A stretch of DNA of 39,394 nt from Oscillospiraceae bacterium (GTDB lineage: Bacteria; Bacillota; Clostridia; Oscillospirales; Ruminococcaceae): NCBI GenBank assembly GCA_016291435.1, contig JAEEXH010000018.1:1-39394 (forward strand), given 5' to 3'. The translations under genes and the position numbers were made by a program. Below are positions 18,572 through 39,394 of the stretch, one piece after another; position 1 is the first letter of the stretch; every line of letters starts with the position of its first letter. Under the pieces are notes generated by a model. It was not told the origin of the DNA, ran no database searches, and saw nothing but the letters and a program-made list of their open reading frames with translations.

Positions 18572-18589
18572 ATAGACCTCCAGTCCCCG

Positions 18590-19743: not shown

Positions 19744-19812
19744 GATAGTATGTTCCTTTCAGATTGATATACAGTTGTGCGTGCGCTCCGCGGGTGACCC
19801 CTCTGTCCGCGA

Positions 19813-20730: not shown

Positions 20731-20735
20731 GTGTC

Positions 20736-22001: not shown

Positions 22002-22021
22002 GTTTTCCGTTGCTCCTTCTG

Positions 22022-22231: not shown

Positions 22232-22248
22232 CCTGTATTTCCCTTTCG

Positions 22249-24741
22249 TCAAATGCCGCAGTCGCCGTTCATGTCCGCATAGACGGAGATGCCGGAGAAC
22301 TGCCTGTCCGCATACGCACGCTCCAGCAGCATGCGTATGAATTTTCTCGTTTCTTCTGTGTTTTTGCACTTCATCAGCACGCGCATACGGTATTTGCCGT
22401 TCAGCCTGCCGTAGCTTGCGGCGACCGGTCCCAGCACACGCAGCGGCATGCGGAGCCCTGTCTCGCGGAGCACCTCCGCGATGATCTCCGTGAATCTCGA
22501 CGCGGCTGCCTGCACCTTTTCCTCAAAGACGCCCGAGAAGCCGATCACGCAGAGATCGCAGACCGGCGGAAAGAGCAGCGCCCTGCGCATTGCAATCTCC
22601 TGCTCATAGAAGCTGTCGTAATCCTGTGCGGCTGCAAGCTGCAAGACATAGTGGTCGGGCATATGCGTCTGCAAAATCGCCCTGCCCTGCCGTTTGCCTC
22701 TGCCGCCGCGCCCGACAACCTGCGTCACCAGCGAGAAGGTGCGTTCATAGCTGCGGTAATCGCCCGCAAACAGCGCCTTATCGACCGACACCACGCCGAC
22801 CAGCGTGACATTCGGGAAATCGAGCCCCTTGCCGATCATCTGTGTGCCGCAGAGAATGTCATATTCGCCGTTTGCGAAGGCGCGGAAGCCTGTTTCATAA
22901 GCAGAGCGCGTCATCGTCGTGTCGGCGTCCATCCGCAGGATGCGCGCATGGGGGAGCAATGTCTGCAATTCCTCCTCGAGCTTCTGCGTCCCGAAGCCCA
23001 TCAGCCGCATGCCCTTCTGCCCGCATTTCGGGCAGGTCTCCGTCGGCGGCTGCACATGCCCGCAGTAGTGGCACATGAGACAGCCGTTTGCCTTGTGATA
23101 GGTCATCGGCACGGAGCAGTTCGGGCAGTAGAGCGGTTCATAGCAGTTTTTGCACTGCAAAAGCGTATGATACCCCCTGCGGTTCAGCAGCAGAATGCTC
23201 TGCTCGCCACGCAGGAGGTTTTCCTGCATGGCATCCGCGAGCGCATTGGAGAACGGGCTGCCGTTGCCGTTCATGCGCTCCTCGTTCATATCGACGACTG
23301 TGACCTCGGGGAGCGGCGCCTGATTGTAGCGCTCGGGCATCCGCAGGAGTGTATAGACCCCGCGCTCGGCAAGATAGCGGCTCTCAAGCGAGGGTGTCGC
23401 CGAGGCAAGCACCAGCGCCGCATTGTGACGGCGGGCACGCACCCTTGCAACCTCTGCCGCATGATAGCGCGGCGCAGAATCGGATTTATAAGAATGCTCG
23501 CCCTCCTCATCGAGAATCAGCAGCCCGATGTCGGGGAGCGGCGCAAAGACTGCGCTGCGCGTCCCGATGACGATCTGTATCTCCCCGCGGCGGATCAGCG
23601 TGTCCGTATCGCGGCGCTGCCGGAGCGACAATCCGCTGTGGATCAGCGCGACCTTGCTGCCGAAGCGCGACTGGAAATACTGCACGACCTGCGGCGTCAG
23701 CGAGATCTCGGGGATCAGCAGGAGCACCTGCCGCCCGCGCCGGAGCGTCAAGGCAATGAGCTGCTCAAAGACTGCCGTCTTGCCGCTCCCGGTGACGCCG
23801 TACAGCAGAAATGCAGCCGCCTTCTGCGCTTCAACGGATGCGGCGACCGCGTCATAAGCTGCCTGCTGCTGCGCATTGAGCACCGTATCCTCCGGTGAAA
23901 TCGTCGCCTCTGCATCACGCGGGACAGAGAGCAGCTCCGCCTCGTATTGCTCCGCGATGCCCGCCTTGATGAGATTCTTCACGACAACCTCTGTCACGCC
24001 CGCATGATAGGCACATTCCTTTGCAGAGAGGGAGGTATGCTCCCGCAGCACGCCGATCGCCAGAAGCTGCTTTGCCGTCGGGCTGAATGCAGTCTCATCC
24101 GCGAGATACGCCTGTGAGAGCCGCAGCAGCTTCTGTACGCTGTCGCTGATGCGCTGCTTCCCCTCAGAGACACTGAGCAGGCAGCCCTTTTTCTCAAGCT
24201 GTTCGAGCAGCTTCTGCTTCGCGGGATCCTCCGCGGCTGTGCGCAGGAGTGCATCGCGCTCGGCTTCCTGTGCGGAGAGCAGCGCCGCATGAAAAATCTG
24301 CTCCTCTGCGGTGAGCTTCGCGCCGACCGGCTTCTCCAGCACGACATAATGCTGCTCAAGCCTCAGCTGCATGCCGCCCGGGAGCACCGCACGCACCGCG
24401 TCATACCATGTGCAGAAGGTGTGCGCATGCAGCCAATCGACCAACATTTGCAGCTCGTCTGTAAGCACAGGCTCCCTGTCGAGCAGCGCCGCAATCGGCT
24501 TCAGGGCAAAGCTGCGCCCTTCCTCCGCTTCGGCAGGTGCTTCGCCCAGCGCCAGCACCATCGCGATGCGTCTGCGGTTACCCATGCCAAACGGCACGGC
24601 AACCCGCATCCCGGTCTTCAGACGGTCCCGCATCGCCTCCGGCACCGCATAGGTATAAAGCTGATCATAGCCAAAGGCAGCCGCATCCAGGGCGACCTGT
24701 GCCGCCTGTACGCCGCTGCCCCATCCGGCATCATGCAGCAT
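22249..24741 (-). CDS. priA: Primosomal protein N' (replication restart helicase)
   Basis: PriA rebuilds replication forks after damage. The 830-residue protein has an N-terminal DNA-binding domain. A superfamily 2 helicase follows, with Walker A GVTGSGKTAVF and a DEEGEHS box. Eight zinc-binding cysteines come as CKNC, CPNC, CHYC and CPKC, and then the C-terminal helicase lobe. Length is in the usual range. Its ATG overlaps the rpoZ stop by one base (TGATG). B. subtilis has coaBC between rpoZ and priA; here it is missing. Confidence 0.97.
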   Translation of the reverse strand: MLHDAGWGSGVQAAQVALDAAAFGYDQLYTYAVPEAMRDRLKTGMRVAVPFGMGNRRRIAMVLALGEAPAEAEEGRSFALKPIAALLDREPVLTDELQMLVDWLHAHTFCTWYDAVRAVLPGGMQLRLEQHYVVLEKPVGAKLTAEEQIFHAALLSAQEAERDALLRTAAEDPAKQKLLEQLEKKGCLLSVSEGKQRISDSVQKLLRLSQAYLADETAFSPTAKQLLAIGVLREHTSLSAKECAYHAGVTEVVVKNLIKAGIAEQYEAELLSVPRDAEATISPEDTVLNAQQQAAYDAVAASVEAQKAAAFLLYGVTGSGKTAVFEQLIALTLRRGRQVLLLIPEISLTPQVVQYFQSRFGSKVALIHSGLSLRQRRDTDTLIRRGEIQIVIGTRSAVFAPLPDIGLLILDEEGEHSYKSDSAPRYHAAEVARVRARRHNAALVLASATPSLESRYLAERGVYTLLRMPERYNQAPLPEVTVVDMNEERMNGNGSPFSNALADAMQENLLRGEQSILLLNRRGYHTLLQCKNCYEPLYCPNCSVPMTYHKANGCLMCHYCGHVQPPTETCPKCGQKGMRLMGFGTQKLEEELQTLLPHARILRMDADTTMTRSAYETGFRAFANGEYDILCGTQMIGKGLDFPNVTLVGVVSVDKALFAGDYRSYERTFSLVTQVVGRGGRGKRQGRAILQTHMPDHYVLQLAAAQDYDSFYEQEIAMRRALLFPPVCDLCVIGFSGVFEEKVQAAASRFTEIIAEVLRETGLRMPLRVLGPVAASYGRLNGKYRMRVLMKCKNTEETRKFIRMLLERAYADRQFSGISVYADMNGDCGI

Positions 24742-25034
24742 CAGTCTGCGTTGTCCTCGTCCGGGTCCGCAAGACGATACTTGCCGGCTGCAAACTCATC
24801 GACTGCTGTCTTGACCGGATTCTCCTCCAGCACGATCTGCTTGATCGTCTTGTCGTCGAGTCTGCCCTTCTGCTCGCCGTTCAGCTTCGCACGCTTGTCG
24901 GCAGCCGCCTTTGCAGCCTCCTTTTCGCGGCAGTGCTGCTCTGCGATCTCTCTCGCACGCTTTGCAATGCCGATGACCAGCGAATAATAGCTGTCATTCT
25001 TTCCGATGATCTGATACATAGACGGTCTCAACAT
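24741..25034 (-). CDS. rpoZ: RNA polymerase omega subunit
   Basis: A 97-residue protein beginning [20 protein letters not shown], with the helix GIAKRAREIAEQ that corresponds to the conserved omega core (ARRAR-like). A charged linker and the ending KTAVDEFAAGKYRL are typical of Clostridial omega. It overlaps the end of gmk by 7 nt and touches priA, so gmk-rpoZ-priA are translationally chained. Confidence 0.95.
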   Translation of the reverse strand: MLRPSMYQIIGKNDSYYSLVIGIAKRAREIAEQHCREKEAAKAAADKRAKLNGEQKGRLDDKTIKQIVLEENPVKTAVDEFAAGKYRLADPDEDNAD

Positions 25035-25636
25035 GATAACATCTCTCCTATTCTTTCGGTCTGATATGCAGGCTTCAGCATCTCAGCGCGGATCATCGCG
25101 CCGAAATCGTCAACTGCATCCTGCAAATCGTCGTTGAGTATTATGTAGTCATACTGCTTTGCGAGCGGAAGCTCCTCCGCAGCACGGGCAACACGCTGTT
25201 CGATGACCTCCTCGGTCTCTGTGCCGCGCTTGTGCAGACGGCGGCGCAGCTCATCGAGCGTCGGCGGAATCGTGAACACAAGGATCGCATCGGGGCATTT
25301 TTCTCGGATCTGGAAGGCGCCCTGCACCTCAATTTCGAGGATCACATGCTTGCCCTGTGCGCGCATCTCCTCGACCTCTTTGCGCGGCGTGCCGTAATAA
25401 TTCCCGACATACTGCGCATGCTCCAGAAAGCCGTCTTCTGCGATGCGGCGCTCAAATTCCTCACGCGAAATGAAATGATAATGCACATGATCGGTCTCGC
25501 CCTCACGCGGGGCACGGGTCGTTGCCGAGACAGAGACCGCGCAGTCGCCGCGCTTTAAGATCTCCGCGACCATGGTACCCTTGCCGCAGCCGGAGGGTCC
25601 CGAGAGCACGATCAGAAGACCTTTCTTCTCACTCAT
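25028..25636 (-). CDS. gmk: Guanylate kinase
   Basis: Phosphorylates GMP to GDP. The 202-residue protein shows the P-loop GPSGCGKGT, the GMP-binding segment [11 protein letters not shown] followed by YHFISREEF, and the EIEVQGA strand. The [13 protein letters not shown] lid also matches. Length is typical. It overlaps remA by 8 nt and rpoZ by 7 nt. Confidence 0.98.
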
Positions 25637-25898
25637 CCTCCTGCTCCTCCTCTGCCGGTGAATTGCTGCCGCCGAGACGCGCCGCGATGGTCTCCGGCTG
25701 GATCGCCGAAAGGATCACATGGTCGCTGTCCATGACAATGACGGCGCGGGTGCGTCTGCCGTAGGTCGCGTCGATCAGTCTGCCGCGGTCGCGGGCATCC
25801 TGCACGATGCGCTTGATCGGTGCGGATTCCGGGCTGACGATCGTCACCAGCCGCACCGAAGAAATCATATTGCCAAAGCCGATGTTGATGAGCCGCAT
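25629..25898 (-). CDS. remA: RemA/DUF370 regulator
   Basis: An 89-residue protein of the RemA (YlzA) family, a ring-forming DNA-binding regulator that activates biofilm matrix genes in B. subtilis. The start [12 protein letters not shown], followed by [13 protein letters not shown] and [14 protein letters not shown], is highly conserved. The C-terminus is acidic and longer than in B. subtilis. The position between yicC and gmk is the same as in Bacillus. Whether it controls a matrix here cannot be told. Confidence 0.94.
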
Positions 25899-25919
25899 CT
25901 TCGGTATCTCCTTTCGCTG

Positions 25920-26816
25920 TCATTCCATATTCTGAATCTGCTCGCGGAGCTTCTCGATCTCCGATTTCATATCGACAACGAGCTTTGTGATGCGCAGATC
26001 CTGTGCCTTCGAGCCGATGGTGTTGACCTCGCGGTTCATCTCCTGCACGAGGAAATCGAGCTTTCTGCCGACCGGCTCTGCCGATTGCAGCAGCTCACGG
26101 AACTGTGCGATATGGCTGTGCAGACGGACAGTTTCCTCGTCGATGGCGGTCTTTTCAGCAAAGATCGCAGCTTCGGTCAGCACGCGGGATTCGTCAACGG
26201 CTCTGTCTGCGAGGAGCTCCTGCAATTTGGCAAAGAGTCTTTCGCGGTAGCTTTCAGCAACAGAAGGTTCGATTGCCTCGACTTCAAGGAGCATCTTTTC
26301 AAGCCCCGCGAGCTTGCCGGTGAGATCCTCCGCGAGACGGGCGCCCTCGGCGTCGCGCATCGTAAGGAAGGAATCGAGCGCTTCTGCCGCGACCTGCTGC
26401 ACCGCATCCCAGACCTCCTGCTCGTCATCCTGCTCCTTCATCACCGTGAAGACATCGGGCAGGCGCAGCAGAGAGGAGAGGCAGATATCGTCATCCAGCC
26501 AGTCGCTGCCGTATTCGCCGAGCTCTGTATTGAGCGAGCGCAGCGCATTGACATAGCCCTCAGCCACAGCGCGGTTGACCACCACGCGGGCATCCTTGCC
26601 GTCCGCACGGATAATCGTCACGGAGACCTCTGTCTTGCCTCTGCCGATTTTGCCGTTCAGCATCCCCTTCAGCTTTTCTTCGAGGTACATGCAGGTGCGG
26701 GGCAGGCGCGCAGAAAACTCATAGTAGCGGTGATTCACCGCACGGATCTCGACGGTCACATCTCTGTCACCGATCAGACGCTGTGCTCTGCCGTAGCCGG
26801 TCATACTTCTAGGCAT
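25920..26816 (-). CDS. YicC/YloC family endoribonuclease
   Basis: A 298-residue protein starting MPRSMTGYGRAQ, the family hallmark, and ending with the conserved helix GREVNTIGSKA-like segment (REVNTIGSKAQDL) and KSEIEKLREQIQNME. The E. coli and Bacillus relatives are reported to be endoribonucleases involved in RNA turnover. I use this ATG, with GAGGG 7 nt upstream, instead of a 9-residue longer form. It heads the large minus-strand cluster and has a good promoter about 55 nt upstream. Confidence 0.94.
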   Translation of the reverse strand: MPRSMTGYGRAQRLIGDRDVTVEIRAVNHRYYEFSARLPRTCMYLEEKLKGMLNGKIGRGKTEVSVTIIRADGKDARVVVNRAVAEGYVNALRSLNTELGEYGSDWLDDDICLSSLLRLPDVFTVMKEQDDEQEVWDAVQQVAAEALDSFLTMRDAEGARLAEDLTGKLAGLEKMLLEVEAIEPSVAESYRERLFAKLQELLADRAVDESRVLTEAAIFAEKTAIDEETVRLHSHIAQFRELLQSAEPVGRKLDFLVQEMNREVNTIGSKAQDLRITKLVVDMKSEIEKLREQIQNME

Positions 26817-26868
26817 ATCAGATCCCTCTTTTCCTTGCCGCATATTACGGCAATTATATCATCTATTT

Positions 26869-26897
26869 AGTATACCATAATTCCGCCGGAAAATCAA
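26869..26897 (-). promoter_or_regulatory. Promoter for the yicC-spoVM cluster
   Basis: Minus strand TTGATT (26897-26892), 17-nt spacer, TATACT (26874-26869). It is the only convincing promoter at the head of the cluster, 53 nt from the yicC start codon. Confidence 0.75.
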
Positions 26898-26945
26898 GGG
26901 CTTTCCGCCGTTTTTTCCCGTTTCGCACACATTTTTGCCCCGGCA

Positions 26946-26985
26946 GAGAAAAAGCACCCGACTCCGCACGGGAATCGGGTGCTTT
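26946..26985 (-). terminator. Terminator of the GH48 gene
   Basis: AAGCACCCGA and TCGGGTGCTT pair perfectly (10 bp), with extra pairing possible in the loop. On the minus strand the stem is followed by TTTTTCTC. It lies about 32 nt after the GH48 stop codon. Confidence 0.9.
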
Positions 26986-27016
26986 GTATTCGGTTTTCGC
27001 TGTCCGTCTCGGAAAA

Positions 27017-29512
27017 TTACTTCTGGCCGAGAACGGAGTAGTCGATCAGACCTGCCAGATACTTGAGGATCATGGTGAGGTCATTACCGTCCACAGTGCC
27101 GTCGTTCTTCACATCAGCATTCTTGGAGCCCTGAACGCTCAGCTCAGCGCCGCCGCCGATTGCCTTTGCGAGCAGAACTGCGTCAGAGAGCGAGCAGCGC
27201 TCTGCGAAGTTCTCTTCCTTGGAGCAGTCTGCGTTGCCCCACTCGACGCTGGTCTGCTCAGGCCCTGCGCCGTCCGGCAGAACATCAGGATACAACTCAT
27301 ACATGGTACCGAGAGCCATCATGATGTCGCCTGCATGCCAGAATCTGTGGTAGGTCAGGTCAACCTGGCCGACATTGACGAATGCGCTTGCATCAGTTGC
27401 GCAGTCCATGCCGTAGTTGTAGGTTTCCTTCGTTGCGTCGAACTCCTTGAGCTTTGCACCTGCTGCGACGTCCTTCTCATATGCTGCCTCAAGCTGCTTA
27501 TAGAGGTCAGAGTAGGACTTGCCTGCATCCTTGTACATCGGACGGATGTCGATGAACTTTGCGCCCGGACCGACTTCGTAGCCATACGGATACTTACCGG
27601 TGTTGCCGCCGGTGTAAACTTCCTGTGCCCAGAAACGAGCGAGGGAGCCGTTGTGGTCAGTTCTGGAGAGACCGATATCGTCTCTGCCGAGCTTCCAGGT
27701 GCGGTCCATGAGCTGCTGAGCGATGTAGAGGCCGTGCTGTGCGAGATCAGTGGTGCTGTCCTCAACAGTGCCGGAAGCCTCAACGCCGTTTGCCTTTGCG
27801 TAGTAGATCAGGGTGTTTGCATAAGAGCAGACGCAGCCGAGGTCGGTGTTCTGCGTGCCTGCGACAGTGCAGGTGAGGTTGCTGTTCTCCTGATAAGAGC
27901 CGGACCATTTCTCAGGCTTGCCGGACCACTTCAGGCTGGACGGAACGGAGAAGTCACCGTCATCGGTCAGCTTGGTGTTATCTGTGAAGAACTTGACCCA
28001 CTTATCCAGAACGGTCTTCAGAGCCTCTTCGATGCTCATGCCGCCCGGCTTGATGCTTGCTGCCTTTGCAGCAACAGTGGGATTGGTCTTGATGATGTAG
28101 TAGAGCTCTGCCAGACGCTGAGTTGCCCAGTACTGGTTACCGGTCCAGTTGTTGGAACCCGGGTCAGCGTAAACCGGCTGCTCGATGTAAGCCATGTCAT
28201 GGAAGGTCGGGATACCGGACGGATAGGTGGAGTAGTTGCCCATCCAGCAGTTGGTGCAGCCGCCTGCGAACGGACCCTGCTTCGAGGACAGCCAGAGATA
28301 CATCTCGAGCTGACGCTCCAGGGACTTCTCGTAGTCCTTCGTTGCATCGGTAGCCTTCATCGCGGTGTTCAGGCCGGAATCATAGAGCAGGCCGAACGCT
28401 GCGAGCGGGTTCTGATAGAACTGATGTGCATGAGAGCAGCCGATCTGCCAAGCCCATGCGCCGTCTGCTGCGCCGCCCCATGCGGTGTACCAGGACATCA
28501 GATAGTGCTTGCCTTCTTCACCTGCGGATGCAGAAGTCTTGCTCTGGCAGCCGATCTTCTTATAGTACTTGTCGTACATGTCGTTACGGCACATATCACC
28601 CATCATACCGGCCTTGGTGGTGACGGAGGAATCGCCGACACCCCAGCGGTTAGCAGCGTAGACAGCCTGGATTGCACGGTCTTCTGCGTCAGGAGCGTTG
28701 GTGTAGGACCAGGACTTCGCAGTGGACTCCTGGAACGCAAACTTCATGCCCTTGCCGGGAGCGCCGTAGTCGAGGGTCTCGATTGACGGATGCGGAATCG
28801 TCTCGAAGCAGGACTCCTGGTCGCCGCGCTGGAAGGTGTTGATGAAGGTGAAGCTGCCGAGCTCGTCACGGCCGGAACCGCTGAAGCCATACCAGTCATC
28901 GACATCAGCCAGCCAGTGGAGCAGATACTCTCTGCCCTCGCTGTAAGCGGAGGTCAGCTTGGAATGCAGCGGGTTCTTACCGGTATTCTGCTCATTGCCC
29001 TCAGAGGGATACAGCTTGACATTGTCCGGATGCTCGTCTGCAACCTGAGCGCTCAGTTCGCCCTTGCTCCAGAAGCCGCTCTGCTGATCCGCTTTCGGGA
29101 TCAGAGCCTCGAGCGTTGCCCATGCCTTGCCGAGATCGGAGCCGGAAGCGCCGGAAACCTCGCCCTTCTTGACGATGTTATCGTGCATCGCTGCGATCCA
29201 GACGATGTAGGACATTGCCTCGGAAGTGGTCTCATGGCCGTAGTCCGGAGCCTCGCAGATCAGCTCTTCGACAGAGTGATACGGGATACCGAAACCGCCG
29301 GAAGCGACATTCTTCGTGCTGAGGTACTTGTTGGTCTGACCGTCCTCGATGACGTCAGCGTAGAGAGACATGAAGCGCTCTGCATAAGTAGAATCGCCGT
29401 ACTTCTCTTCCTTGGTGCGAGCCGCAGAAGCAGTGACGGACATCAGCGCGCTGGATGCCATTGCCGTCGCGAGGACGGCCGCGAGAATTGCCTTGCTTTT
29501 CTTGAATTGCAT
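27017..29512 (-). CDS. Cellulosomal GH48 cellulase with C-terminal dockerin
   Basis: GH48 enzymes are processive cellobiohydrolases acting on cellulose chain ends, usually the dominant cellulosome enzyme. The 831-residue precursor has a signal peptide (about 1-30, ending VTASA). The GH48 module follows, with YGHETTSEAM (91-100) carrying the family's proposed acid glutamate. A dockerin (about 760-831) closes the protein. Its second calcium repeat, NADVKNDGTVDGNDLTMILK, is canonical; the first (NADCSKEENFAERCSLSDAV) is expanded and has two cysteines. I chose MQFKKSKAIL as start, with AGGGG upstream. The gene is single, with its own promoter and terminator. The dockerin implies a scaffoldin encoded elsewhere. 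Confidence 0.97.
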   Translation of the reverse strand: MQFKKSKAILAAVLATAMASSALMSVTASAARTKEEKYGDSTYAERFMSLYADVIEDGQTNKYLSTKNVASGGFGIPYHSVEELICEAPDYGHETTSEAMSYIVWIAAMHDNIVKKGEVSGASGSDLGKAWATLEALIPKADQQSGFWSKGELSAQVADEHPDNVKLYPSEGNEQNTGKNPLHSKLTSAYSEGREYLLHWLADVDDWYGFSGSGRDELGSFTFINTFQRGDQESCFETIPHPSIETLDYGAPGKGMKFAFQESTAKSWSYTNAPDAEDRAIQAVYAANRWGVGDSSVTTKAGMMGDMCRNDMYDKYYKKIGCQSKTSASAGEEGKHYLMSWYTAWGGAADGAWAWQIGCSHAHQFYQNPLAAFGLLYDSGLNTAMKATDATKDYEKSLERQLEMYLWLSSKQGPFAGGCTNCWMGNYSTYPSGIPTFHDMAYIEQPVYADPGSNNWTGNQYWATQRLAELYYIIKTNPTVAAKAASIKPGGMSIEEALKTVLDKWVKFFTDNTKLTDDGDFSVPSSLKWSGKPEKWSGSYQENSNLTCTVAGTQNTDLGCVCSYANTLIYYAKANGVEASGTVEDSTTDLAQHGLYIAQQLMDRTWKLGRDDIGLSRTDHNGSLARFWAQEVYTGGNTGKYPYGYEVGPGAKFIDIRPMYKDAGKSYSDLYKQLEAAYEKDVAAGAKLKEFDATKETYNYGMDCATDASAFVNVGQVDLTYHRFWHAGDIMMALGTMYELYPDVLPDGAGPEQTSVEWGNADCSKEENFAERCSLSDAVLLAKAIGGGAELSVQGSKNADVKNDGTVDGNDLTMILKYLAGLIDYSVLGQK

Positions 29513-29755
29513 TCTTTTTTCCCCTCTCGTAAAAATAGGTTTGTTGCTTCTCACGCACGGAACCCGCGAAGCAATGACGGGCTGTTCGTGATGAATCGGT
29601 GCCGCACCCGTGCAGCGGCACTGTCCCCTCGGCTGTACGGTGACCTTTTATACGCATTGCCTGTCCGGATTTGCAGCGATGAAGCTGCGGCCTGCGCAGT
29701 ACGACGCAGAGTCCTTCACGGGCATCAGAATATAAGTATCCCCAATACAGTTCCT
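29513..29755 (-). promoter_or_regulatory. Long structured 5' leader of the GH48 mRNA
   Basis: From the promoter's expected start near 29755 to the ATG is about 240 nt without an open gene. On the minus strand it can form several hairpins, for example GTGCCGC-TGCACGGGT-GCGGCAC (about 29600-29622) and GCAGC-TTCATC-GCTGC. I compared it mentally with T-box and cyclic-di-GMP riboswitch cores and saw no match. It could stabilise the mRNA or regulate it; neither is shown. Confidence 0.55.
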
Positions 29756-29761
29756 TAATTC

Positions 29762-29790
29762 ATTATAGTGTTTCCGGGGCGATTTGTCAA
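29762..29790 (-). promoter_or_regulatory. Consensus sigma-A promoter of the GH48 gene
   Basis: Minus strand TTGACA (29790-29785), 17-nt spacer, TATAAT (29767-29762). Both hexamers are perfect, consistent with strong expression. The divergent ABC operon starts about 290 nt to the right; the rest of this 569-bp gap shows no gene. Confidence 0.92.
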
Positions 29791-29948
29791 GCCTTTGTGC
29801 GAAAACCGTTCACCTTCGGCATACTTTTTGGATGCTTCAACAAAATCGTACTTCCATTTTTGTGCAACCTGAACTATCAATTTTGACCCTGTGCAAAACG
29901 ATTCTCACGATCTCCCCGCGCAGCATACACATGCCTGACACATTCGCC

Positions 29949-29957
29949 TGCTATAAT
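29949..29957 (+). promoter_or_regulatory. Possible extended -10 promoter for the ABC operon
   Basis: TGCTATAAT is an extended -10 element. No good -35 lies 17 nt upstream. It would give a leader of about 118 nt before the ATPase gene. Confidence 0.45.
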
Positions 29958-30081
29958 ATGCATAATGCAGGATTCTGCGCTTTCGTTCATCTCAATGTAA
30001 AAGTTTGTTCATAATCTATTCATACGCATTTGCGATAATAGAATATATATGCTTTCTTATGAAAGGGGCTTTGAGACCGCT

Positions 30082-31119
30082 ATGGTTGAAATCAAAAATC
30101 TCACCAAATACTACGGCGTACACCCCGCTGTGCAGGATATTTCCTTCACGGTCGGCGACCACGAAGTGCTCGGCTTTCTGGGGCCGAACGGCGCCGGAAA
30201 ATCCACGACCATGAACATGATCACAGGATGTCTGCCCTCGACCTCGGGCACGGTGCTTGTGGACGGCTACGACATTGCAAAGGATCCGATGGAGGTCAAG
30301 CGCCGCATCGGCTATCTGCCGGAACTGCCGCCGGTCTACCCGGACATGCGGGTGCGCGATTATCTGACCTTCGCGGCAGGGCTCAAGGGTGTGCCGCGTG
30401 CAGAGCGCAAAAGCCAAGTCAACACCGCAATGGAGCGCCTGCGCATCACCGATGTGCAGAAGCGCATCATCGGCAATCTCTCGAAGGGCTACCGCCAGAG
30501 AGTCGGCTTTGCGATGGCGCTGCTCGGCAAGCCGAAGTTCCTGATCCTCGATGAGCCGACGGTCGGTCTCGACCCGACGCAGGTCGCAGAGGTGCGCAAG
30601 CTGATCCGGGAGCTCTCCGCCGATCACACGATCATTTTCTCGACACATATCCTCGCCGAGGTCACTGCCGTCTGCGAGCGGGTCGTCATCATCAATAAGG
30701 GGCAGATCCGCGCAGTTGACACCATCACGAATCTCGAAAACAGCCTCACGACGGAAAAGATCCTCAGACTGAAGATCGAAGGCGAGATCACAAAGATCAC
30801 GAATATTATAAATAGTACAAAGGGCGTGCAGGAGATTACCTCCGTGGAGTATGAAAGCTCCGGCGTCAATATCTTCACTGTCAAGGTCGATGCGGACGAT
30901 GTGCGCAAGCCGCTCATGGCGGCGCTCCTTGCCGGCGACTGCATGGTGCTCGAGGTCACGGCGGTGAAGTCGAGCCTCGAAGATGTCTTTGTCAAGCTCA
31001 CGGGATCGCCCACACGCAAGCAGTCGCGTGAAGACGCCTTCCAGGAGCTCGGCAGAGAAATGGATGCCGCACGCGAGGCAGACGAGCGGAAGAACAAGAA
31101 CGGAAAGGAGGATGCGTAA
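30082..31119 (+). CDS. ABC transporter ATPase, GldA-like
   Basis: A 345-residue ATP-binding subunit. Walker A is GPNGAGKST, the signature is LSKGYRQRVG and Walker B is LILDEPTVGLD; the switch histidine lies in FSTHILAE. A C-terminal extension of about 110 residues ends in a charged tail. The family is the GldA/NatA type that pairs with ABC-2 permeases. I start at MVEIKNLTKYYG, where homology begins; an upstream ATG at 30049 lacks a ribosome site. The stop codon overlaps the next ATG (TAATG). Confidence 0.94.
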   Translation: MVEIKNLTKYYGVHPAVQDISFTVGDHEVLGFLGPNGAGKSTTMNMITGCLPSTSGTVLVDGYDIAKDPMEVKRRIGYLPELPPVYPDMRVRDYLTFAAGLKGVPRAERKSQVNTAMERLRITDVQKRIIGNLSKGYRQRVGFAMALLGKPKFLILDEPTVGLDPTQVAEVRKLIRELSADHTIIFSTHILAEVTAVCERVVIINKGQIRAVDTITNLENSLTTEKILRLKIEGEITKITNIINSTKGVQEITSVEYESSGVNIFTVKVDADDVRKPLMAALLAGDCMVLEVTAVKSSLEDVFVKLTGSPTRKQSREDAFQELGREMDAAREADERKNKNGKEDA

Positions 31120-31850
31120 TGTTTTCACTGTATAAAAAGGAAGTACAGTCCTACTTCTACTCCCCCTTTGCATATGTCGTCAGCGCACTCTTCCTGTTCG
31201 TGTTCTCGCTGAGCTTCATCAACAGCATCTCGAGCATGAGCTCCAATGTGCTGAAATTCTCCTTCTCCAATATCTTCTATAACAGCTTCTTCTATTTCAT
31301 CTTCCTGATCCCGCTGCTGACGATGCGCACCTTTGCGGAGGAGCGCAAGTCGCACACGGAGACGCTCTGGCTCTCGGCACCGATCACGATTCCGCAGGTC
31401 GTCATCGCGAAATTCCTCGCGGTGGCAACGGTCTTCCTGCTGATGATGGTGCTCTCGCTTTTCTTCCCGCTGGTCGCCTGGTGGCACGGCTCTGTTGTGC
31501 TCTCGAGCCTGATCTGCGGCTATCTGGGATTCTTCCTCTGGAGCCTGGTCTGCATCGCAATCGGCGTGATGATCTCCGCGCTGACGGACAACCCCATCAT
31601 TGCGGCTGTGCTCGGCGAAGCAGCCATGATCCTTGTGCTCTTCCTCGACAACTTCACGAACACCGATCTGATCCAGTCTGTCAAGCCCGTTGCAAAGGTC
31701 TTTGAGTGGTTCTCGACCGAAAAGCGCTTCGGCGCCTTCTCGCAGGGGCTCTTCAGTCTCGCCGACCTGATCTTCTTCCTGTCGATCACCGTCGTCGTGC
31801 TGATCTGGACGATCATCATTATTGAAAAGCGCCGCCAGAGCCGCGGCTGA
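31119..31850 (+). CDS. ABC-2 permease, GldF-like
   Basis: A 243-residue membrane protein with six likely transmembrane segments. The phrase LLTMRTFAEERKSHTETLWLSAPI is close to the GldF pattern, in which a conserved ERK/EL segment follows the second helix. AAAGGAGG stands just upstream, at the end of the ATPase gene. It would form the channel of an exporter with the ATPase and the GldG-like protein. The substrate is unknown. Confidence 0.93.
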   Translation: MFSLYKKEVQSYFYSPFAYVVSALFLFVFSLSFINSISSMSSNVLKFSFSNIFYNSFFYFIFLIPLLTMRTFAEERKSHTETLWLSAPITIPQVVIAKFLAVATVFLLMMVLSLFFPLVAWWHGSVVLSSLICGYLGFFLWSLVCIAIGVMISALTDNPIIAAVLGEAAMILVLFLDNFTNTDLIQSVKPVAKVFEWFSTEKRFGAFSQGLFSLADLIFFLSITVVVLIWTIIIIEKRRQSRG

Positions 31851-31867
31851 CCGGAGGAATATGTGCA

Positions 31868-33337
31868 ATGGATAACTCGATTTTTGCCAAGAACAAGCGC
31901 TTCACTGTGCTTGCGTGGGTGCTCGCGATCCTTGTGCTTGCGGTCGCGATCCCATTTAACCTGATCTTTGAACGGCTGAATGTCCACTTTGACATGACGC
32001 CGAACAATCTCTACACGCTCTCCAAAACAACGGAAGACTATCTCAATGAGCTTGATGACCGCGGCGTGGTCGTCGATGTCTACTTCCTCGCGAAGATGGA
32101 GGATCTGGAAGCAGATCTCGAATGGCTGGCGCTCTACCGCACGCTGCTTGCCTATGATGCACACGATTGCTTCAACCTCATCGACATCGACCCGGATGAG
32201 GAGCCGGAAACGCTCAAAAAGATCAATCCGGACGGCGTCTATAACTTCGATGTGGCAGACTTCATCTTCGTCTGCGGCGATATGATCAAGCGCATGCCCG
32301 GCGGTATGGCATATGTCTACAAGACCAATGCCGACGGACAGGTCACCGATGCGGAATTCCGCGCAGAAAACTATTTCACCGGCTACATCAAGTCCGTCGT
32401 GGACGGCGAGCAGCCGACGGTCTACTTCCTTGAGGGACACGGCGAAAAGCCGCTCACCGAAATGACCCGCATGACCACCAACCTCGGCAACTACAACTAC
32501 GGCTCCGGCGCGCTCAACCTGACGACCGCCGAAGCTGTCCCGGACGACTGCTGCATCCTCGTCATCGCAGACCCGCAGTTTGACCTCACCGATGCGGAGT
32601 ATCAGAAGATCTACGCCTACACCGAGAAGGGCGGCAATGTCTCCCTGCTGATCGGGCCGAACGATTCCAAGGAATCCTTCCAGAATATCCAGCGGCTTCT
32701 GAACACCTACTGCATCGCAATGAACTACGACCGCGTCTCCGAGACCGACGAGAACCGTCACTCGCACGATGAGCCCTACGCGATGATGTGCGATATCGCA
32801 GAGCCCTCCGGCGATTCGACCGAGGATCTCACCTCTGCCCTGCTCCCGACGGTCAACGATCTTGTCACCTACATGCCCTATTCCCGCAGCTTTTACAGCA
32901 CCTACGGCACCAACTACGGCGCGATGAGCATGGATATCATGATCCGCACCGCGACCACCGCACAGGCAGAGCCCTGGGGCGGCAGTCAGCTTGACCAGGA
33001 TGCCGTCACCGGCGAGAATCTCTCGCTTGCAATGTATTCAATGGATTCCCAGCGCGAGGGCTCGAAGCTCACCGTCTTCGGCAGCGCGGATTTCATCACC
33101 GATGAGGGCGCCGCAAGCGCATACTTCATCAACCCGCTCCAGCTCTTCCTCTCCACGATCACATGGATGTATAACTCCGATGTGGATATGAACATCGCAA
33201 ACAAGGCGCGCACCTATGACAGCCTCAATGTCAACAGCTCTTCCGAGGCAACCGGTCTGATGGCTCTGTTTATCGGCTTCCCGCTTCTGATCGCTGCCGT
33301 CGGCGTGATCGTCTGGCTGAGGAGGAAGGACGGATGA
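31868..33337 (+). CDS. GldG-like ABC transporter auxiliary protein
   Basis: A 489-residue protein with an N-terminal membrane helix (about 12-32), a long outer region and a C-terminal helix (about 463-483) before a basic end. The segment FDMTPNNLYTLSKTT followed by VVVDVYFL is typical of the GldG/Mla-type auxiliary domain. PTVYFLEGHGEKPL and the later ILVIADPQFDLTDAE also fit this family. In Bacteroidetes GldG partners GldA and GldF, but gliding machinery is not expected here. GGAGG precedes the ATG. Its end overlaps the DUF4340 gene by 4 nt. Confidence 0.9.
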   Translation: MDNSIFAKNKRFTVLAWVLAILVLAVAIPFNLIFERLNVHFDMTPNNLYTLSKTTEDYLNELDDRGVVVDVYFLAKMEDLEADLEWLALYRTLLAYDAHDCFNLIDIDPDEEPETLKKINPDGVYNFDVADFIFVCGDMIKRMPGGMAYVYKTNADGQVTDAEFRAENYFTGYIKSVVDGEQPTVYFLEGHGEKPLTEMTRMTTNLGNYNYGSGALNLTTAEAVPDDCCILVIADPQFDLTDAEYQKIYAYTEKGGNVSLLIGPNDSKESFQNIQRLLNTYCIAMNYDRVSETDENRHSHDEPYAMMCDIAEPSGDSTEDLTSALLPTVNDLVTYMPYSRSFYSTYGTNYGAMSMDIMIRTATTAQAEPWGGSQLDQDAVTGENLSLAMYSMDSQREGSKLTVFGSADFITDEGAASAYFINPLQLFLSTITWMYNSDVDMNIANKARTYDSLNVNSSSEATGLMALFIGFPLLIAAVGVIVWLRRKDG

Positions 33338-34749
33338 AACAAATTCGCTGGATCATCATTCTCGCTGTCACAGCCCTTGTGCTCGGAGGGATCTTCATTG
33401 TCGTCGATCGGCGCACAAAGGAAAAGGACAAGGAGAAGAACAAAGGAACAGAATCCAAGCAGCTTCTCTCCATCAACGCAGACTCCGTCACGCGCATCGT
33501 CATCGACAATGAAGAAGGGCATTTTGCCTTCGACTGGGACATGCAGAAGGGCTGCTGGAAGCTCGTCAGCAGCGATCAGTTCCGCATCAATGAATATGCG
33601 ATCTCCGGCATCTGCACCTATATCTGCGATGTCAAATCCGTGAAGACCGTCGCCTTCGACTGCGAAAACACTTCCGCCTACGGCTTCGACAACCCTGTCA
33701 CAATCAAGGTCTACACGCTCGACACCGACGAGGAGCACCCCTACATCCTTCAGGTCGGCGACAGCACCCCGACCCATGATGCCTACTATGTCATGGTGGA
33801 CGGCTCGGATGATGTGTATACGGTCGATTACAACACCGGCTCCATCTTCTGCGCCGCAAAGAACACCCTGCGCAACACCTATCTCTTTGATTACAATGCC
33901 TCGCAGCTCACCTATTACAAGCTCGAGCGCAGCGGAAAGGTCATCTCGGAGCTCAAACGCAATGCAAACAATGACTTCGAGCTGATCACCCCCGCAGGCT
34001 ATGAGACCTCCAAGCTGACCGTCGATGACCTGACGAATCTCGTGATCCGTGTGCAGGTCACGGAATTCCTGGAGGAGCACCCGGAGGATCTTGCCAAATA
34101 CGGGCTCAAGGACCCCTGGGCAAAGCTCTCGCTCGAAGCCGTTGATGACGGCGCGACCGTTAAGGAGGAGATGTGGTTCGGCGACATGACCACGGACAGC
34201 GACAACGCACAGGAGATGTACGGCTATTTCACAAGCACCGATCAGGTGTTCAAGGTGCTGCGTGCGGATGTGCAGTTCCTGGAATATGACGCAAAGAAGT
34301 ATATCTCGCCCTACTGCGTGACCGTCAACATCGAGGACCTGAGCGGCATCGACGTCGATCTCGGCGAGGTCTATGACCTGCACGAGACACTCTCGCTCGA
34401 CTACGCAAACGGGCAGTATGCGCTCGGCAGCACCGATATCGACGCCTTTGACGACGAAGATCTCACGCAGCAGTACATCGAATTCTTCCGCTCGATCGCC
34501 TATCTCACCTTCACCGATACCGATTTTGACGCGAAGCCCGAGGGCGACGCTGCCATGTCGATCACCTATCACTATCTCGACGGCAAGGATCTGGCGCTGA
34601 CATTCATCCCCGCCGGCGACAAAAACTACTATCTCATGAAGAACGGCACCTACACCGGGCAGACCGTCCGGCTCAATGCCTTCACCGGCACCGGCTGCAT
34701 GACGAATGTCTACACCGAACTGCTGAACAAGGTCAAGAACCATCAGTGA
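33334..34749 (+). CDS. DUF4340 protein, membrane-anchored
   Basis: A 471-residue protein with an N-terminal membrane helix (about 6-24), a short charged linker and then a large outer domain. Segments such as FDCENTSAYGFDNPVTIKVY and the two-repeat layout (about 45-220 and 225-460) suit DUF4340. These proteins regularly follow GldG-like genes, and I infer that they form the outer part of the same complex. The gene ends the operon and is followed by a strong terminator. Confidence 0.88.
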   Translation: MKQIRWIIILAVTALVLGGIFIVVDRRTKEKDKEKNKGTESKQLLSINADSVTRIVIDNEEGHFAFDWDMQKGCWKLVSSDQFRINEYAISGICTYICDVKSVKTVAFDCENTSAYGFDNPVTIKVYTLDTDEEHPYILQVGDSTPTHDAYYVMVDGSDDVYTVDYNTGSIFCAAKNTLRNTYLFDYNASQLTYYKLERSGKVISELKRNANNDFELITPAGYETSKLTVDDLTNLVIRVQVTEFLEEHPEDLAKYGLKDPWAKLSLEAVDDGATVKEEMWFGDMTTDSDNAQEMYGYFTSTDQVFKVLRADVQFLEYDAKKYISPYCVTVNIEDLSGIDVDLGEVYDLHETLSLDYANGQYALGSTDIDAFDDEDLTQQYIEFFRSIAYLTFTDTDFDAKPEGDAAMSITYHYLDGKDLALTFIPAGDKNYYLMKNGTYTGQTVRLNAFTGTGCMTNVYTELLNKVKNHQ

Positions 34750-34750
34750 A

Positions 34751-34791
34751 GCAATGCCCCCGATACGATGCGTACCGGGGGCATGCTTTTT
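34751..34791 (+). terminator. Terminator of the ABC operon
   Basis: ATGCCCCCG pairs with CGGGGGCAT, with further TACG/CGTA pairing inside, followed by GC and TTTTT. It lies directly after the DUF4340 stop codon. Confidence 0.92.
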
Positions 34792-34794
34792 GCA

Positions 34795-34823
34795 TTGACA
34801 GCACGCGAAAAGTATGTTACAAT
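34795..34823 (+). promoter_or_regulatory. Promoter of the GH51 operon
   Basis: TTGACA (34795-34800), 17-nt spacer, TACAAT (34818-34823). The gene starts 35 nt later. It begins just 4 nt past the preceding terminator's T run. Confidence 0.9.
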
Positions 34824-34857
34824 AAATATACAGAAATATATGAAGGAGTTACCCGCT

Positions 34858-36321
34858 ATGAAACAATATCAAATGCTGATCAATGCCGCAGACCGCACCG
34901 GGCATATCCGCCCCGAGCTCTACGGTCATTTTTCTGAGCACCTCGGCAGATGTATCTATCAGGGCATCTATGTCGGGGAGGATTCCCCCATTCCAAACAT
35001 CCACGGCATCCGCAGGGATGTGATCGAAGCCTTCCGGGAGATCAGGATGCCTGTGCTGCGCTGGCCGGGCGGCTGCTTTGCAGACGAGTATCACTGGAGA
35101 GACGGCATCGGCGAGAAGGCTTCCCGCAAGCGCATGGTCAACACAAACTGGGGCGGCACCGTCGAGGACAACAGCTTCGGCACGCATGAGTTCATGGAGC
35201 TCTGCGAGCTGGTCGGCTGCAAGCCCTATCTCGCAGGAAATGTCGGCAGCGGCACCGTGCAGGAGCTTGCGGAGTGGATCGAATACATCACCTTCGACGG
35301 CGATTCCCCGCTTGCGAATGAGCGCCGCAGAAACGGACGCGAAAAGCCCTGGAAGCTCCCCTATCTCGGCATCGGCAATGAGGCCTGGGGCTGCGGCGGC
35401 AATATGCGCCCGGAGCACTATGTCGATGTCTACCGCCGCTACCAGAGCTTCTGCAAGAATTTCAGCGGCAACACGCTCTATCGCGTTGCATGCGGCCCGA
35501 GCGCAGACGATTATCACTGGACAGAGACCATGATGCAGGAGCTGAAGCCCTGGCACACAAACGCCATTGCGCTGCACTTCTACACCGTGCCCGACTGGAA
35601 CAACAAGGGTCTTGCAGCCGAATTTGACGATGCACAGTATGAGACGCTGCTGGCTGCGGCAGGCTATATGGACACGCTGCTCACCCGTCACACGGAGATC
35701 ATGAACCGCTATGATCCTGACAACCGGATCGGGCTGATTGTCGATGAATGGGGCACATGGTATGATGTCGAGCCTGACACGAACCCCGGCTTCCTCTATC
35801 AGCAGAACACCATGCGTGACGCGATCGTCGCCGCGCTGACACTCAATATCTTCAACCGTCATTCGGAGCGCGTTGTGATGGCAAATCTCGCGCAGGCAGT
35901 GAATGTCCTTCAGGCGCTGCTGCTCACGGAGGGCGCAAAAATGATCAAGACGCCGACCTATCATGTCTTCGATCTCTACAAGGCACATCAGGACGGCGAC
36001 GCGGTCTATTGCTTCTCTGAGAATGACCGCAGCGAGAAGGGCGTGCCGGTGCTCTCGCACTCCGCTTCGCTGAAGGACGGCAGGCTGACGCTCACAGTCG
36101 CAAACTGCACGCTCAGAGACAGCGCTGAGATCTGCTGCACGGTCGCCGGATTTGACGCAAAGACCGTCACCGCACGGATCCTCACGAATGAAGCGCATGC
36201 ACACAACACCTTTGAGGAGCCGGAGCAGGTCACGATTCAGCCGCATACCGCATCCATCGAAAACGGTGTGCTCCGCTGCACGCTGCCGCCCTGCTCGGTC
36301 ACGGAGCTGACCCTCGCATGA
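34858..36321 (+). CDS. GH51 alpha-L-arabinofuranosidase
   Basis: Releases arabinofuranose from arabinoxylan or arabinan fragments. The 487-residue protein has no signal peptide, so it acts on imported oligosaccharides in the cytoplasm. The (beta/alpha)8 barrel carries the acid/base Glu175 in [11 protein letters not shown] and the nucleophile Glu297 in [10 protein letters not shown]. The C-terminal beta-sandwich starts near residue 385. AAGGAG stands 7-8 nt before the ATG; longer upstream frames run through the promoter and are excluded. Its stop overlaps the DUF6171 gene. Confidence 0.97.
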
Positions 36322-36575
36322 TCGGAAAGCCCCCGTGCAGACGCTGCCTCCTCGCGGAAACGGATGCTGCGCACATCGCAGAGACTGTGCAGAAACGCAT
36401 CGCACAGATGCCGGAGGAAGAACGGACAGCGCCCGCGGAATATGCACGGCGGCTCAGTCAGTGCCGGGCATGTGACATGCTCACAGACGGGCTCTGCGGC
36501 GTCTGCGGCTGCTATGCGGAGCTCCGTGCGGCAAAAGCGAAGCAGCACTGCCCCGACTGCGTCCCCCGCTGGTAG
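36318..36575 (+). CDS. DUF6171-like small cysteine-rich protein
   Basis: An 85-residue protein with paired cysteines: CRRC near the start, then [18 protein letters not shown] and a final CPDC. The spacing suggests two zinc sites. The pattern CRACD...[14 protein letters not shown] matches DUF6171 as I recall it; the function is unknown. The start codon overlaps the GH51 stop by 4 nt, so it is co-translated with the glycosidase, but I see no functional link. Confidence 0.85.
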
Positions 36576-36624
36576 CCCCCCGCACGCTGCAATCAACCAT
36601 TACCCGGAAAGGCGGTATATCCCG

Positions 36625-37185
36625 ATGCACCCATTCCCAAGGCTCGCCATGTTCGATCTGGACGGCACGCTTTTCGACACCTTCCGCGCAAATTATCTCG
36701 CCTACCGCGAAGCCTGCGGTGACGAATTTCCGTTCGACGAAGCCTTCTTCGCCGCACACTGCATGAGCCGCAGCTACACCGATTTTCTCCCCGACTGCGG
36801 CGTTCCCGCAGAGCGCGTGCAGGAGATCCATGAGCGCAAAAAGGCATGCTATGCGCATTATTTCTCTAAGATCCGACCGAACCGTGCACTCTTTGCCATC
36901 GCCGAGCAGATGCGGCAGAACGGCACTGTGCTCGCCGTTGTCACCACGGCGAACCGCAAAAACACCGATGAGCTGCTCTCCGCATTCGGCTATGATGCAC
37001 TCTTCACCGTCAAGGTCACGCAGGAATGCGTCACGCGCCACAAGCCGCACCCTGATTCCTATTTGCAGGCGATGCAGGCTGTGGGTGCTGCGCCGGAGGA
37101 ATGCGTGGTCTTCGAGGATTCCGGCATCGGCGTGGAAGCCGGAAAAGCATCCGGCGCCGCTGTCTTCCGCATCGAACAATTCTGA
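36625..37185 (+). CDS. HAD superfamily hydrolase
   Basis: A 186-residue phosphatase-like protein. Motif I is FDLDGTLFDT (D11, D13), motif II lies in VVTTANRKN, motif III in RHKPHPDSYL and motif IV in VFEDSGIGVEAG. The alpha-helical cap (about 20-85) is typical of the beta-phosphoglucomutase/phosphatase subclass. The exact substrate, probably a sugar phosphate or nucleotide, cannot be read. GGAAAGGCGG lies upstream of the chosen ATG; a longer frame overlaps the DUF6171 gene out of phase and is not supported. Confidence 0.93.
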   Translation: MHPFPRLAMFDLDGTLFDTFRANYLAYREACGDEFPFDEAFFAAHCMSRSYTDFLPDCGVPAERVQEIHERKKACYAHYFSKIRPNRALFAIAEQMRQNGTVLAVVTTANRKNTDELLSAFGYDALFTVKVTQECVTRHKPHPDSYLQAMQAVGAAPEECVVFEDSGIGVEAGKASGAAVFRIEQF

Positions 37186-37192
37186 CAGAATC

Positions 37193-37231
37193 CGCCCGTC
37201 TTCTGCACAAAAAGATGGCAGGAGGCGGGCG
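37193..37231 (+). terminator. Hairpin after the HAD gene, possible terminator
   Basis: CGCCCGTCTTCTGC pairs with GCAGGAGGCGGGCG over 14 bp with two G-U pairs. No proper T run follows, so termination is uncertain. It stands between the GH51 operon and the tRNA promoter. Confidence 0.5.
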
Positions 37232-37238
37232 TGAAGTC

Positions 37239-37267
37239 TTGACAAATCCGGCAGATTGTGGTATAAT
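37239..37267 (+). promoter_or_regulatory. Consensus promoter of tRNA-Gly
   Basis: TTGACA (37239-37244), 17-nt spacer, TATAAT (37262-37267). Both hexamers are perfect and the tRNA starts 20 nt later. Confidence 0.93.
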
Positions 37268-37287
37268 AGCATGGTAAAGAGCGGTAT

Positions 37288-37358
37288 GCAGGTGTAGTTT
37301 AGTGGTAAAACATCAGCTTCCCAAGCTGAGGTTGAGGGTTCGATTCCCTTCACCTGCT
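37288..37358 (+). tRNA. tRNA-Gly, anticodon CCC
   Basis: A 71-nt cloverleaf: acceptor GCAGGTG/CACCTGC pairs perfectly, D-arm GTTTAGTGGTAAAAC, anticodon stem TCAGC/GCTGA with loop TTCCCAA, and a T-arm with TTCGATT in its loop. CCC reads GGG glycine codons. The 3' CCA is not encoded (T then TCA follows). It is transcribed from its own promoter towards the unknown gene 61 nt downstream. Confidence 0.96.
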
Positions 37359-37419
37359 TCAGCCAAGCGTTTCGGCATTTGTCGGAGCGCTTTTGTTTTG
37401 TATCAGAAGGGAGCGGCAT

Positions 37420-37833
37420 ATGAAACGGGAGATCATTCGGATCGGAACACCGAACAAGCTGAATCACAAATATCTGAACGGGCAGTTTGAGCTGCTCGTG
37501 CTCGGTGTCACCGGCAGAGACCCGGACACGGTACAGGCTGCCGAAGCTGCGCGTCTGGCACTGCTGGAGGAGGAAGCCGCCCGTCTCTACAAGCAGTATA
37601 CTGCCATGCCGCGAAAGGAGCTCTGCCAGCTCTTTCAGGCATACGGTGTGCGGTGCCTCAGTGAGCTGATCCGCTGCTTTGTGACGTACACATACACGCT
37701 CCTGCTTTCGCTCGCTGACGCAAAGCAGATCCTTTCGCTGACAGAATCGCTCCGCAGACGCCGCGCCGAAACAGAGCGCATGGTCGCGGCCGGCAGTGCA
37801 ATACAGGCGCGTTTGCAGCAGAACGCAGAATAA
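37420..37833 (+). CDS. Protein of unknown function
   Basis: A 137-residue, mostly helical protein with no signal or recognised motif. It begins MKREIIRIGTPNKLNHKYLNG. Its middle (about 45-80) is a charged helix, a more hydrophobic helix (about 85-110) follows, and the tail is basic then polar. AGAAGGGAG stands about 5-8 nt before the ATG, better than the start 9 codons upstream. It may be transcribed with the tRNA. A bidirectional terminator follows. Confidence 0.75.
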   Translation: MKREIIRIGTPNKLNHKYLNGQFELLVLGVTGRDPDTVQAAEAARLALLEEEAARLYKQYTAMPRKELCQLFQAYGVRCLSELIRCFVTYTYTLLLSLADAKQILSLTESLRRRRAETERMVAAGSAIQARLQQNAE

Positions 37834-37838
37834 ACACA

Positions 37839-37872
37839 AAGCCCCTGCGTGCAGTGTAACACGCAGGGGCTT
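37839..37872. terminator. Bidirectional terminator between convergent genes
   Basis: AAGCCCCTGCGTG and CACGCAGGGGCTT pair perfectly over 13 bp. T-rich tracts follow on both strands. It separates the unknown plus-strand gene from yebC. Confidence 0.92.
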
Positions 37873-37882
37873 CACTTCTTTC

Positions 37883-38620
37883 TTATTCCTCGTCAGGCTG
37901 ATCCCAGTTGTGCCAGACATTCTGCACATCATCGTCATCCTCGAGATGCTCAAGCAGCAGGTTCATCTTGCGGATCTGCTCCTCATCCGTCAGCGTGACA
38001 TAGGTGCTCGGCACCTGCTCCGCCTCCGCGGACACGACATTGTAGCCCTTTGCCGTGAGACCCTCGCGCAGCTCGCCGACTGCGTTCGGTGCGCAGATAA
38101 TCTCCACGCTCTCCTCCTCAAAGGTCATGTCATCGCCGCCGAGATCCATCACATCCTCAAGCACGGTATCCTCATCGAGCTCGCCCTCATGCTCCAGCAC
38201 GACGATGCCTTTCTCAGAGAAGAGATAGGAGACACAGCCGTTGGTGCCGAGGTTGCCGCCGAACTTGTCGAAGTAGTGACGTACATCACCGGCTGTTCTG
38301 TTCTTGTTGTCTGTTAATGTTTCAACGATACATGCAACACCACCTACTCCGTATCCTTCATAAGTGTTTTCTTCATAGTTAATTGAACCTAATTCACCAG
38401 ATGCCTTCTTAATGCTACGATTGATATTGTCATTAGGCATATTGTTTGCTTTTGCTTTAGCAATAACATTACGAAGTTCGCTATTTGATGCTGGATCTGC
38501 TCCGCCATTCTTAACTGCAATTGCTATTTCACGACCAATCTTTGTAAAAACATTAGCACGTGCTGCATCTGCCTTACCTTTCTTTTGTGCAATATTATGC
38601 CATTTTGAATGTCCGCTCAT
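37883..38620 (-). CDS. yebC: YebC/TACO1 family regulator (mosaic gene)
   Basis: A 245-residue YebC family protein, of full and usual length. Members act as transcriptional regulators or as aids to translation of proline-rich stretches. It starts MSGHSKWHNIAQKKGKADAA and has the conserved NRTAGDVRHYFDKFGG. The reading frame is intact, but composition is not: codons for about residues 1-105 are AT-rich (AAT, ATT, GTT, ACA) and those after about 115 are GC-rich like the rest of the window. The switch falls near 38,270-38,330 in the best conserved part of the gene. The encoded protein may be functional if the junction is real, or an assembly chimera if not. Confidence 0.93.
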   Translation of the reverse strand: MSGHSKWHNIAQKKGKADAARANVFTKIGREIAIAVKNGGADPASNSELRNVIAKAKANNMPNDNINRSIKKASGELGSINYEENTYEGYGVGGVACIVETLTDNKNRTAGDVRHYFDKFGGNLGTNGCVSYLFSEKGIVVLEHEGELDEDTVLEDVMDLGGDDMTFEEESVEIICAPNAVGELREGLTAKGYNVVSAEAEQVPSTYVTLTDEEQIRKMNLLLEHLEDDDDVQNVWHNWDQPDEE

Positions 38621-38631
38621 GTTATACCCCT

Positions 38632-39375
38632 TTATTTAACACTATACATCGCAATAGCTGCTGCCACCGAAACGTTTAGTGATTCTACATTGTTTTTCAT
38701 TGGAATAGAAATTGTGTTTGTTACAACTTCCTTAATCTCTTTAGAGATTCCATGTGCTTCACTACCCATAATTAGAGTGATTGGTCCTTCAAGCTTTTTA
38801 TCTAAGATATTTTCTCCCTTCATATCTAGCATTGCACTCTTTGTTTTTGTAATTAAAGTTTGTGCTTGCTCTAAAGAGATATCATAGATTCTTACCTTGA
38901 ATATGCCACCTAATGTTGATCTAATTACTTTTGGCGAATAAACATCTACACTATTGTAAAGATATATATCTTCAAATCCTGCCGCTGCTGCTGTTCTTAT
39001 TATTGTTCCAACATTTCCTGCATCTGATACATTGTCTAGTAAAAGAGCATTTTTCTTTGGAAGAGCAAACTCGTTTACAACTTGCTTGCAAACAGCAACA
39101 CTTCCATAAGGAGTTTTAGTATCTGATATCTTATTTAAAATATGATCTTCAACTAAAAATACTTTGGCTGCTAAATGTTTATTAACTATTGAAGCACACT
39201 CGTCTTGCCTGTTTTTGTTAGTGAAAATATATAATATCTCCACCTTCTCAGACATATCTCTTAAAAGATTAATACCCTCCGCTAAAAACAATCCGCTTTC
39301 ATCTCTTCCCTTTTTATCTAAAAGGGATGATGCAAGTTTTACAAATTGGTTTTGGCTAGAGGTTATTATTTCCAT
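38632..39375 (-). CDS. SpoU/TrmH-family RNA 2'-O-methyltransferase
   Basis: A 247-residue methyltransferase. The N-terminal part (SSQNQFVKLASSLLDKKGRD) resembles the RlmB-type substrate-binding domain. The knotted SPOUT domain shows LDNVSDAGNVGTIIRTA, IMGSEAHGIS and ESLNVSVAAAIAMY, the three SpoU motifs. It probably methylates a ribose in 23S rRNA or tRNA, but the site is not readable. It ends 11 nt before the yebC start codon. Its DNA is AT-rich throughout, like the first half of yebC, so it probably comes from a different genome than the rest of the window. Confidence 0.93.
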   Translation of the reverse strand: MEIITSSQNQFVKLASSLLDKKGRDESGLFLAEGINLLRDMSEKVEILYIFTNKNRQDECASIVNKHLAAKVFLVEDHILNKISDTKTPYGSVAVCKQVVNEFALPKKNALLLDNVSDAGNVGTIIRTAAAAGFEDIYLYNSVDVYSPKVIRSTLGGIFKVRIYDISLEQAQTLITKTKSAMLDMKGENILDKKLEGPITLIMGSEAHGISKEIKEVVTNTISIPMKNNVESLNVSVAAAIAMYSVK

Positions 39376-39394
39376 TGAATTATGCTATCGCTTT

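Follow-up and report, generated by a model that had tools for sequence, protein, structure and literature searches.

Results and discussion

The window analysed here is an entire contig of 39394 bases (C81), so that its right edge is also the contig end. It belongs to a draft genome (G000) of 155 contigs and 3.16 Mb, with an estimated completeness of 92.72 and contamination of 3.59. Near the right edge a yebC gene changes its base composition part of the way along an intact frame, and the question raised is whether this records a real genetic exchange or a fault in assembly. The features concerned are listed below.

37839..37872, no strand assigned: GC-rich inverted repeat between ORF 37393-37833 and yebC, read by eye; it looks like a candidate terminator shared by the two
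37883..38620, minus strand: hybrid yebC frame, 245 aa (ORF, family profile, split ancestry)
37883..38275, minus strand: 3' part of yebC, host-genus type, GC rich (protein and DNA identity to the genus)
38276..38296, minus strand: switch interval of 21 bases (type-specific codons on either side; change points at 38278 and 38296)
38297..38620, minus strand: 5' part of yebC, AT-rich Clostridia type (protein and DNA identity to L033-L035)
38632..39375, minus strand: RNA 2'-O-methyltransferase gene, AT-rich type, directly upstream of yebC (70% amino acid identity to L033-L035)

Composition break within yebC

The hand counts of G+C made for the first-pass annotation (35 in 38161-38220, 23 in 38641-38700 and 19 in 38821-38880) proved exact. 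Its description of the right side as AT-rich, methyltransferase gene included, was also borne out, GC being 0.580 over positions 1-38283 and 0.347 beyond. Within yebC itself, 25 of 113 third codon positions are G or C in codons 1-113, compared with 102 of 132 in codons 114-245. The best change point for third-position GC falls after codon 114 (window 38278), with a log-likelihood gain of 40.4, a value reached by none of 1000 codon shuffles (maximum 8.0). At the level of single bases, scanned over 37000-39394, the change point is 38296. The abrupt change previously placed near 38,270-38,330 was narrowed, with composition and ancestry both switching at 38276-38296.

As a composition control, 19 of the 155 G000 contigs were sampled, with up to 20 kb taken from the start of each, together with C80, the other contig of this draft that carries a yebC gene. 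One of the 19, C60 (L101, 2340 bases), consists entirely of N and was excluded from the counts, leaving 18 usable contigs. The lowest GC of any 1-kb window in these 18 contigs and C80 was 0.401. From one 600-base flank to the next, GC jumped by at most 0.20 in the controls, compared with 0.225 at the yebC junction. Since this barely exceeds the control range, the distinctive signs are the sustained low GC and the change of ancestry. A GC dip near 30 kb was considered as a similar junction and set aside, because GC is host-like on both sides of it; the largest jump there is 0.15, at 30120, and the ORF at 29784-30014 has a GC of 0.42.

Ancestry of the two parts of yebC

The frame is open throughout and its 245 amino acids are of normal length for the family, as had been claimed. 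It scores above the cut-offs of both YebC/PmpR profiles, NF001030 (322.2 against 243 bits) and TIGR01033 (300.6 against 208.75 bits), and in this it is like any member of the family; it differs in that its two parts come from separate lineages. The suggestion of a hybrid origin stood when each half was compared separately, the best relatives of the two being different. Two sets of loci were used. The first comprised three AT-rich MAG loci with a GC of 0.34-0.35 (L033, L034 and L035, labelled Clostridia bacterium or uncultured Clostridia bacterium), and the second was the host-genus set of 27 loci, from 26 other genomes and C80. Amino acid identity to L033, L034 and L035 is 100, 100 and 99%, respectively, in codons 1-108, and 42-43% in codons 109-245. 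The 27 host-genus loci are 62-68% identical to the first segment and 76-85% identical to the second. At the DNA level, codons 1-90 match L033-L035 with an identity of 0.944-0.948, and the 3' part matches 25 genus genes with 0.755-0.824. The best genus relative of the 3' half is L007 (from genome G029) by DNA and L003 by protein.

In steps of 60 bases, the DNA of the gene matches L033-L035 with an identity of 0.88-1.00 as far as position 300 and of no more than 0.60 from position 361. The switch is bounded by an AGA codon of the AT-rich type at gene positions 322-324 and a TAC codon of the host type at 346-348, which places the change of ancestry at gene positions 325-345. Over a 66-base stretch spanning the junction, own-type codons are kept on both sides in all 26 other genus loci and in all three donor-type loci. 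At most about 21 bases at the join fit both sides, as judged from relatives rather than from the parents' own sequences.

Identity to L033-L035 is uneven along the AT-rich side. The 180 bases at 38315-38494 have an identity of 0.93-1.00; the start of yebC, about 120 bases, has 0.90-0.92, and 60-base steps through the methyltransferase gene give 0.43-0.91. The peak at 38315-38494 may reflect strong conservation or another switch, from one AT-rich relative to a second.

The AT-rich block extends to the contig end, which lies 19 bases past the methyltransferase start codon and about 1.1 kb past the switch; the contig stops inside the block, with no return to host sequence. The 1111-base contig end matches L033-L035 over its whole length with 79-80% DNA identity, and no further copy of it was found elsewhere in the G000 draft. 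A search of the genome contigs with the methyltransferase gave 13 loci, of which L033-L035 were 70% identical over all 247 residues and the other ten 30-37%. The best NCBIfam match of the protein is RlmB (TIGR00186), at 92.9 bits; as this is below the cut-off of 160.15, the exact family member is left unnamed. The order methyltransferase-yebC is common to the window and all three of L033-L035, yebC beginning about 10 bases after the methyltransferase gene.

A second yebC in the same draft

G000 contains a second yebC, at C80:623-1357 (locus L062), in the order obgE-mrnC-yebC that is typical of the genus. As on C80, mrnC and obgE stand upstream of yebC in 25 of the 26 other genus loci; in the exception, L028, yebC stands at the end of the locus and its match starts from residue 22. 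There is one convincing mrnC and one convincing obgE in G000, both on C80. No convincing second copy of either was found in the draft, the other matches to mrnC having E values of 0.26 and 0.50 and the other match to obgE being 41% over residues 73-218.

The C80 gene also changes ancestry. It was compared with contig C45 of G027, a genome from a different species of the genus. In C80 202-1079 (878 nt, the yebC 3' part and a noncoding tail) there is a single mismatch and no gap, and in C80 1080-1357 (278 nt, the yebC 5' part) there are 37 mismatches. Counted along yebC, the 3' half is identical in 387 of 387 columns, compared with 234 of the first 270, and C80 becomes G027-like from gene position 279 onward. 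Among the 300 pairs formed by 25 other genus genes the highest 3'-half identity is 96.9%, with none at 98%, and the difference in identity between halves does not exceed 0.117, compared with 0.133 for C80 and G027. The noncoding tail belongs to a dispersed repeat, for which G027 gives 116 matches and G000 ten, three of them within C80 itself and seven, of 27-34 bases, elsewhere. Some of the G027 copies of this repeat (L062:140-600 on C80) are inverted within one stretch.

The presence of two copies in the draft would be expected if G000 had two true yebC genes, that on C81 being a horizontally acquired paralogue. However, of 61 genomes examined 56 have a yebC match, and G000 alone has two, the other 55 having one each. 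Each G000 copy is moreover split between two ancestries, so that together they may represent two pieces of a single native gene. A genuine paralogue is considered very improbable.

Relationship between the two copies

If one native gene has been divided between the contigs, the 5' half on C80 and the 3' half on C81 should belong together. Both have the same best genus relative by DNA, L007; against this, the C81 3' half is closest to L003 by protein. When 25 genus genes are ranked by identity to each half, the Spearman correlation of the ranks for the C80 5' half with those for the C81 3' half is 0.71, and with those for its own 3' half 0.43. These rank correlations give weak, supporting evidence, since the range for intact genes is wide (-0.07 to 0.95, mean 0.67) and the C81 and C80 3' halves also correlate at 0.61. 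From the ancestries taken together we infer that the C80 5' side and the C81 3' side are two pieces of one native gene, in which case the C80 switch would lie at gene positions 279-348.

Gene order did not help to place the C81 3' half as native. To its left are a 146-aa ORF (37393-37833) and an adjoining ORF that presumably encodes a protein resembling a HAD-type phosphatase. Neither was found beside yebC in the 27 genus loci, with flanks of about 1.5 kb or less, and neither had a match in L063-L069 (seven stretches of 6,000-13,001 bases), in C80 or in L070-L072. Among the other, automatically chosen ORFs of the window, yebC was the sole match in L063-L069. Of 29 other genus genomes, 7 have relatives of the 146-aa ORF, in each case on a different contig from yebC.

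Origin of the junction

Two explanations had been offered on first reading, a contig assembled as a chimera through a conserved sequence and a homologous recombination, and the evidence strongly favours the former: the halves of the C81 gene have different best relatives, and C80 switches too. C81 is, with high confidence, an assembly chimera, and its final 1.1 kb or so (about 38297-39394) would be foreign to the source genome. The composition change in yebC is very probably an ordinary artefact of assembly and not a real feature, and the 245-aa protein is most probably an artefact that fuses sequence from two taxa. The simplest account that the sequences allow is that there is one native yebC, each piece of which was continued into the yebC of another species at a conserved stretch. 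On C81 the assembler would have left the host-genus genome within this stretch and entered the yebC of an AT-rich Clostridia species. C80 would carry the matching error, in which the obgE-mrnC-yebC 5' side runs on into a yebC 3' half and a downstream repeat that belong to a species very near G027. The joins were presumably made by short words common to the species. That C81 and C80 both switch partner at almost the same point of a single gene fits a tangle in the assembly graph, and a second ancestry switch in the same gene of the same draft points to assembly.

A real homologous recombination would have brought the AT-rich block, comprising the methyltransferase gene and the yebC 5' half, into the host chromosome and left a working hybrid gene. 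As this explanation requires, the frame is kept through the join, which falls at a homologous codon, and the product is a full-length protein that fits its family, but an assembly error at a shared word gives an in-frame join at a homologous codon equally well. Likeness between the two gene types is, furthermore, low, at 58-59% for the 5' part and 50-51% for the 3' part (C80 compared with L033-L035), the block reaches the contig end without coming back to host sequence, and the same gene on C80 also switches, to a third species. A 40-base query over the junction, with up to three mismatches allowed, was run against an even sample of 394 genomes of the order, taken from a larger group. The only genome in which it was present was the window's own. 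The proposal that the same junction be sought in independent isolates was answered with none in the 393 others, a list that held no conspecific strain and no other member of the genus. There were no exact matches to the junction in viral_contigs, and a literature search found no paper on yebC with a hybrid gene and recombination. Recombination is judged very unlikely. Its extension to both contigs, with the conserved core of yebC as a true recombination point that gave one copy an AT-rich 5' half and the other a sister-species 3' half, is similarly unlikely.

The GC-rich part of C81 might itself be a contaminant from another species of the genus. The contamination estimate of the draft leaves room for this, and the longest matches of 17901-37880 to other genus genomes are at most 76% identical, so that no near relative fixes the species. 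A contaminant would still have to be joined to another species, as it leaves the AT-rich end unexplained; this origin is improbable, though compatible with a chimera.

One published account (PMC4496567) states the general mechanism by which interspecies chimeric contigs arise in metagenomes, via a k-mer shared in a conserved gene. C81 resembles such contigs in its abrupt change of ancestry, in a conserved coding stretch and near a contig end; as in such contigs, the gene order of the donor type continues past the join. It is unlike the usual case in that a second contig of the draft has a matching switch, which allowed the diagnosis to be made without reads. Other errors of this kind may be recognised in the same way, by seeking a corresponding switch in a second contig of the draft. 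If taken at face value, both the methyltransferase and the hybrid protein might be entered in databases under this genome and then be described as cases of transfer between distant lineages.

Other repeats in the window

A segment of 298 bases (26949-27246), which takes in the 3' end of ORF 27017-29554 and a little of the sequence past it, has an 87% copy at G000:C136:13461-13758. About 64 residues of the same ORF match C80, L059 and L060. Perhaps, and this is a guess, the ORF carries a recurring C-terminal module, putatively dockerin-like.
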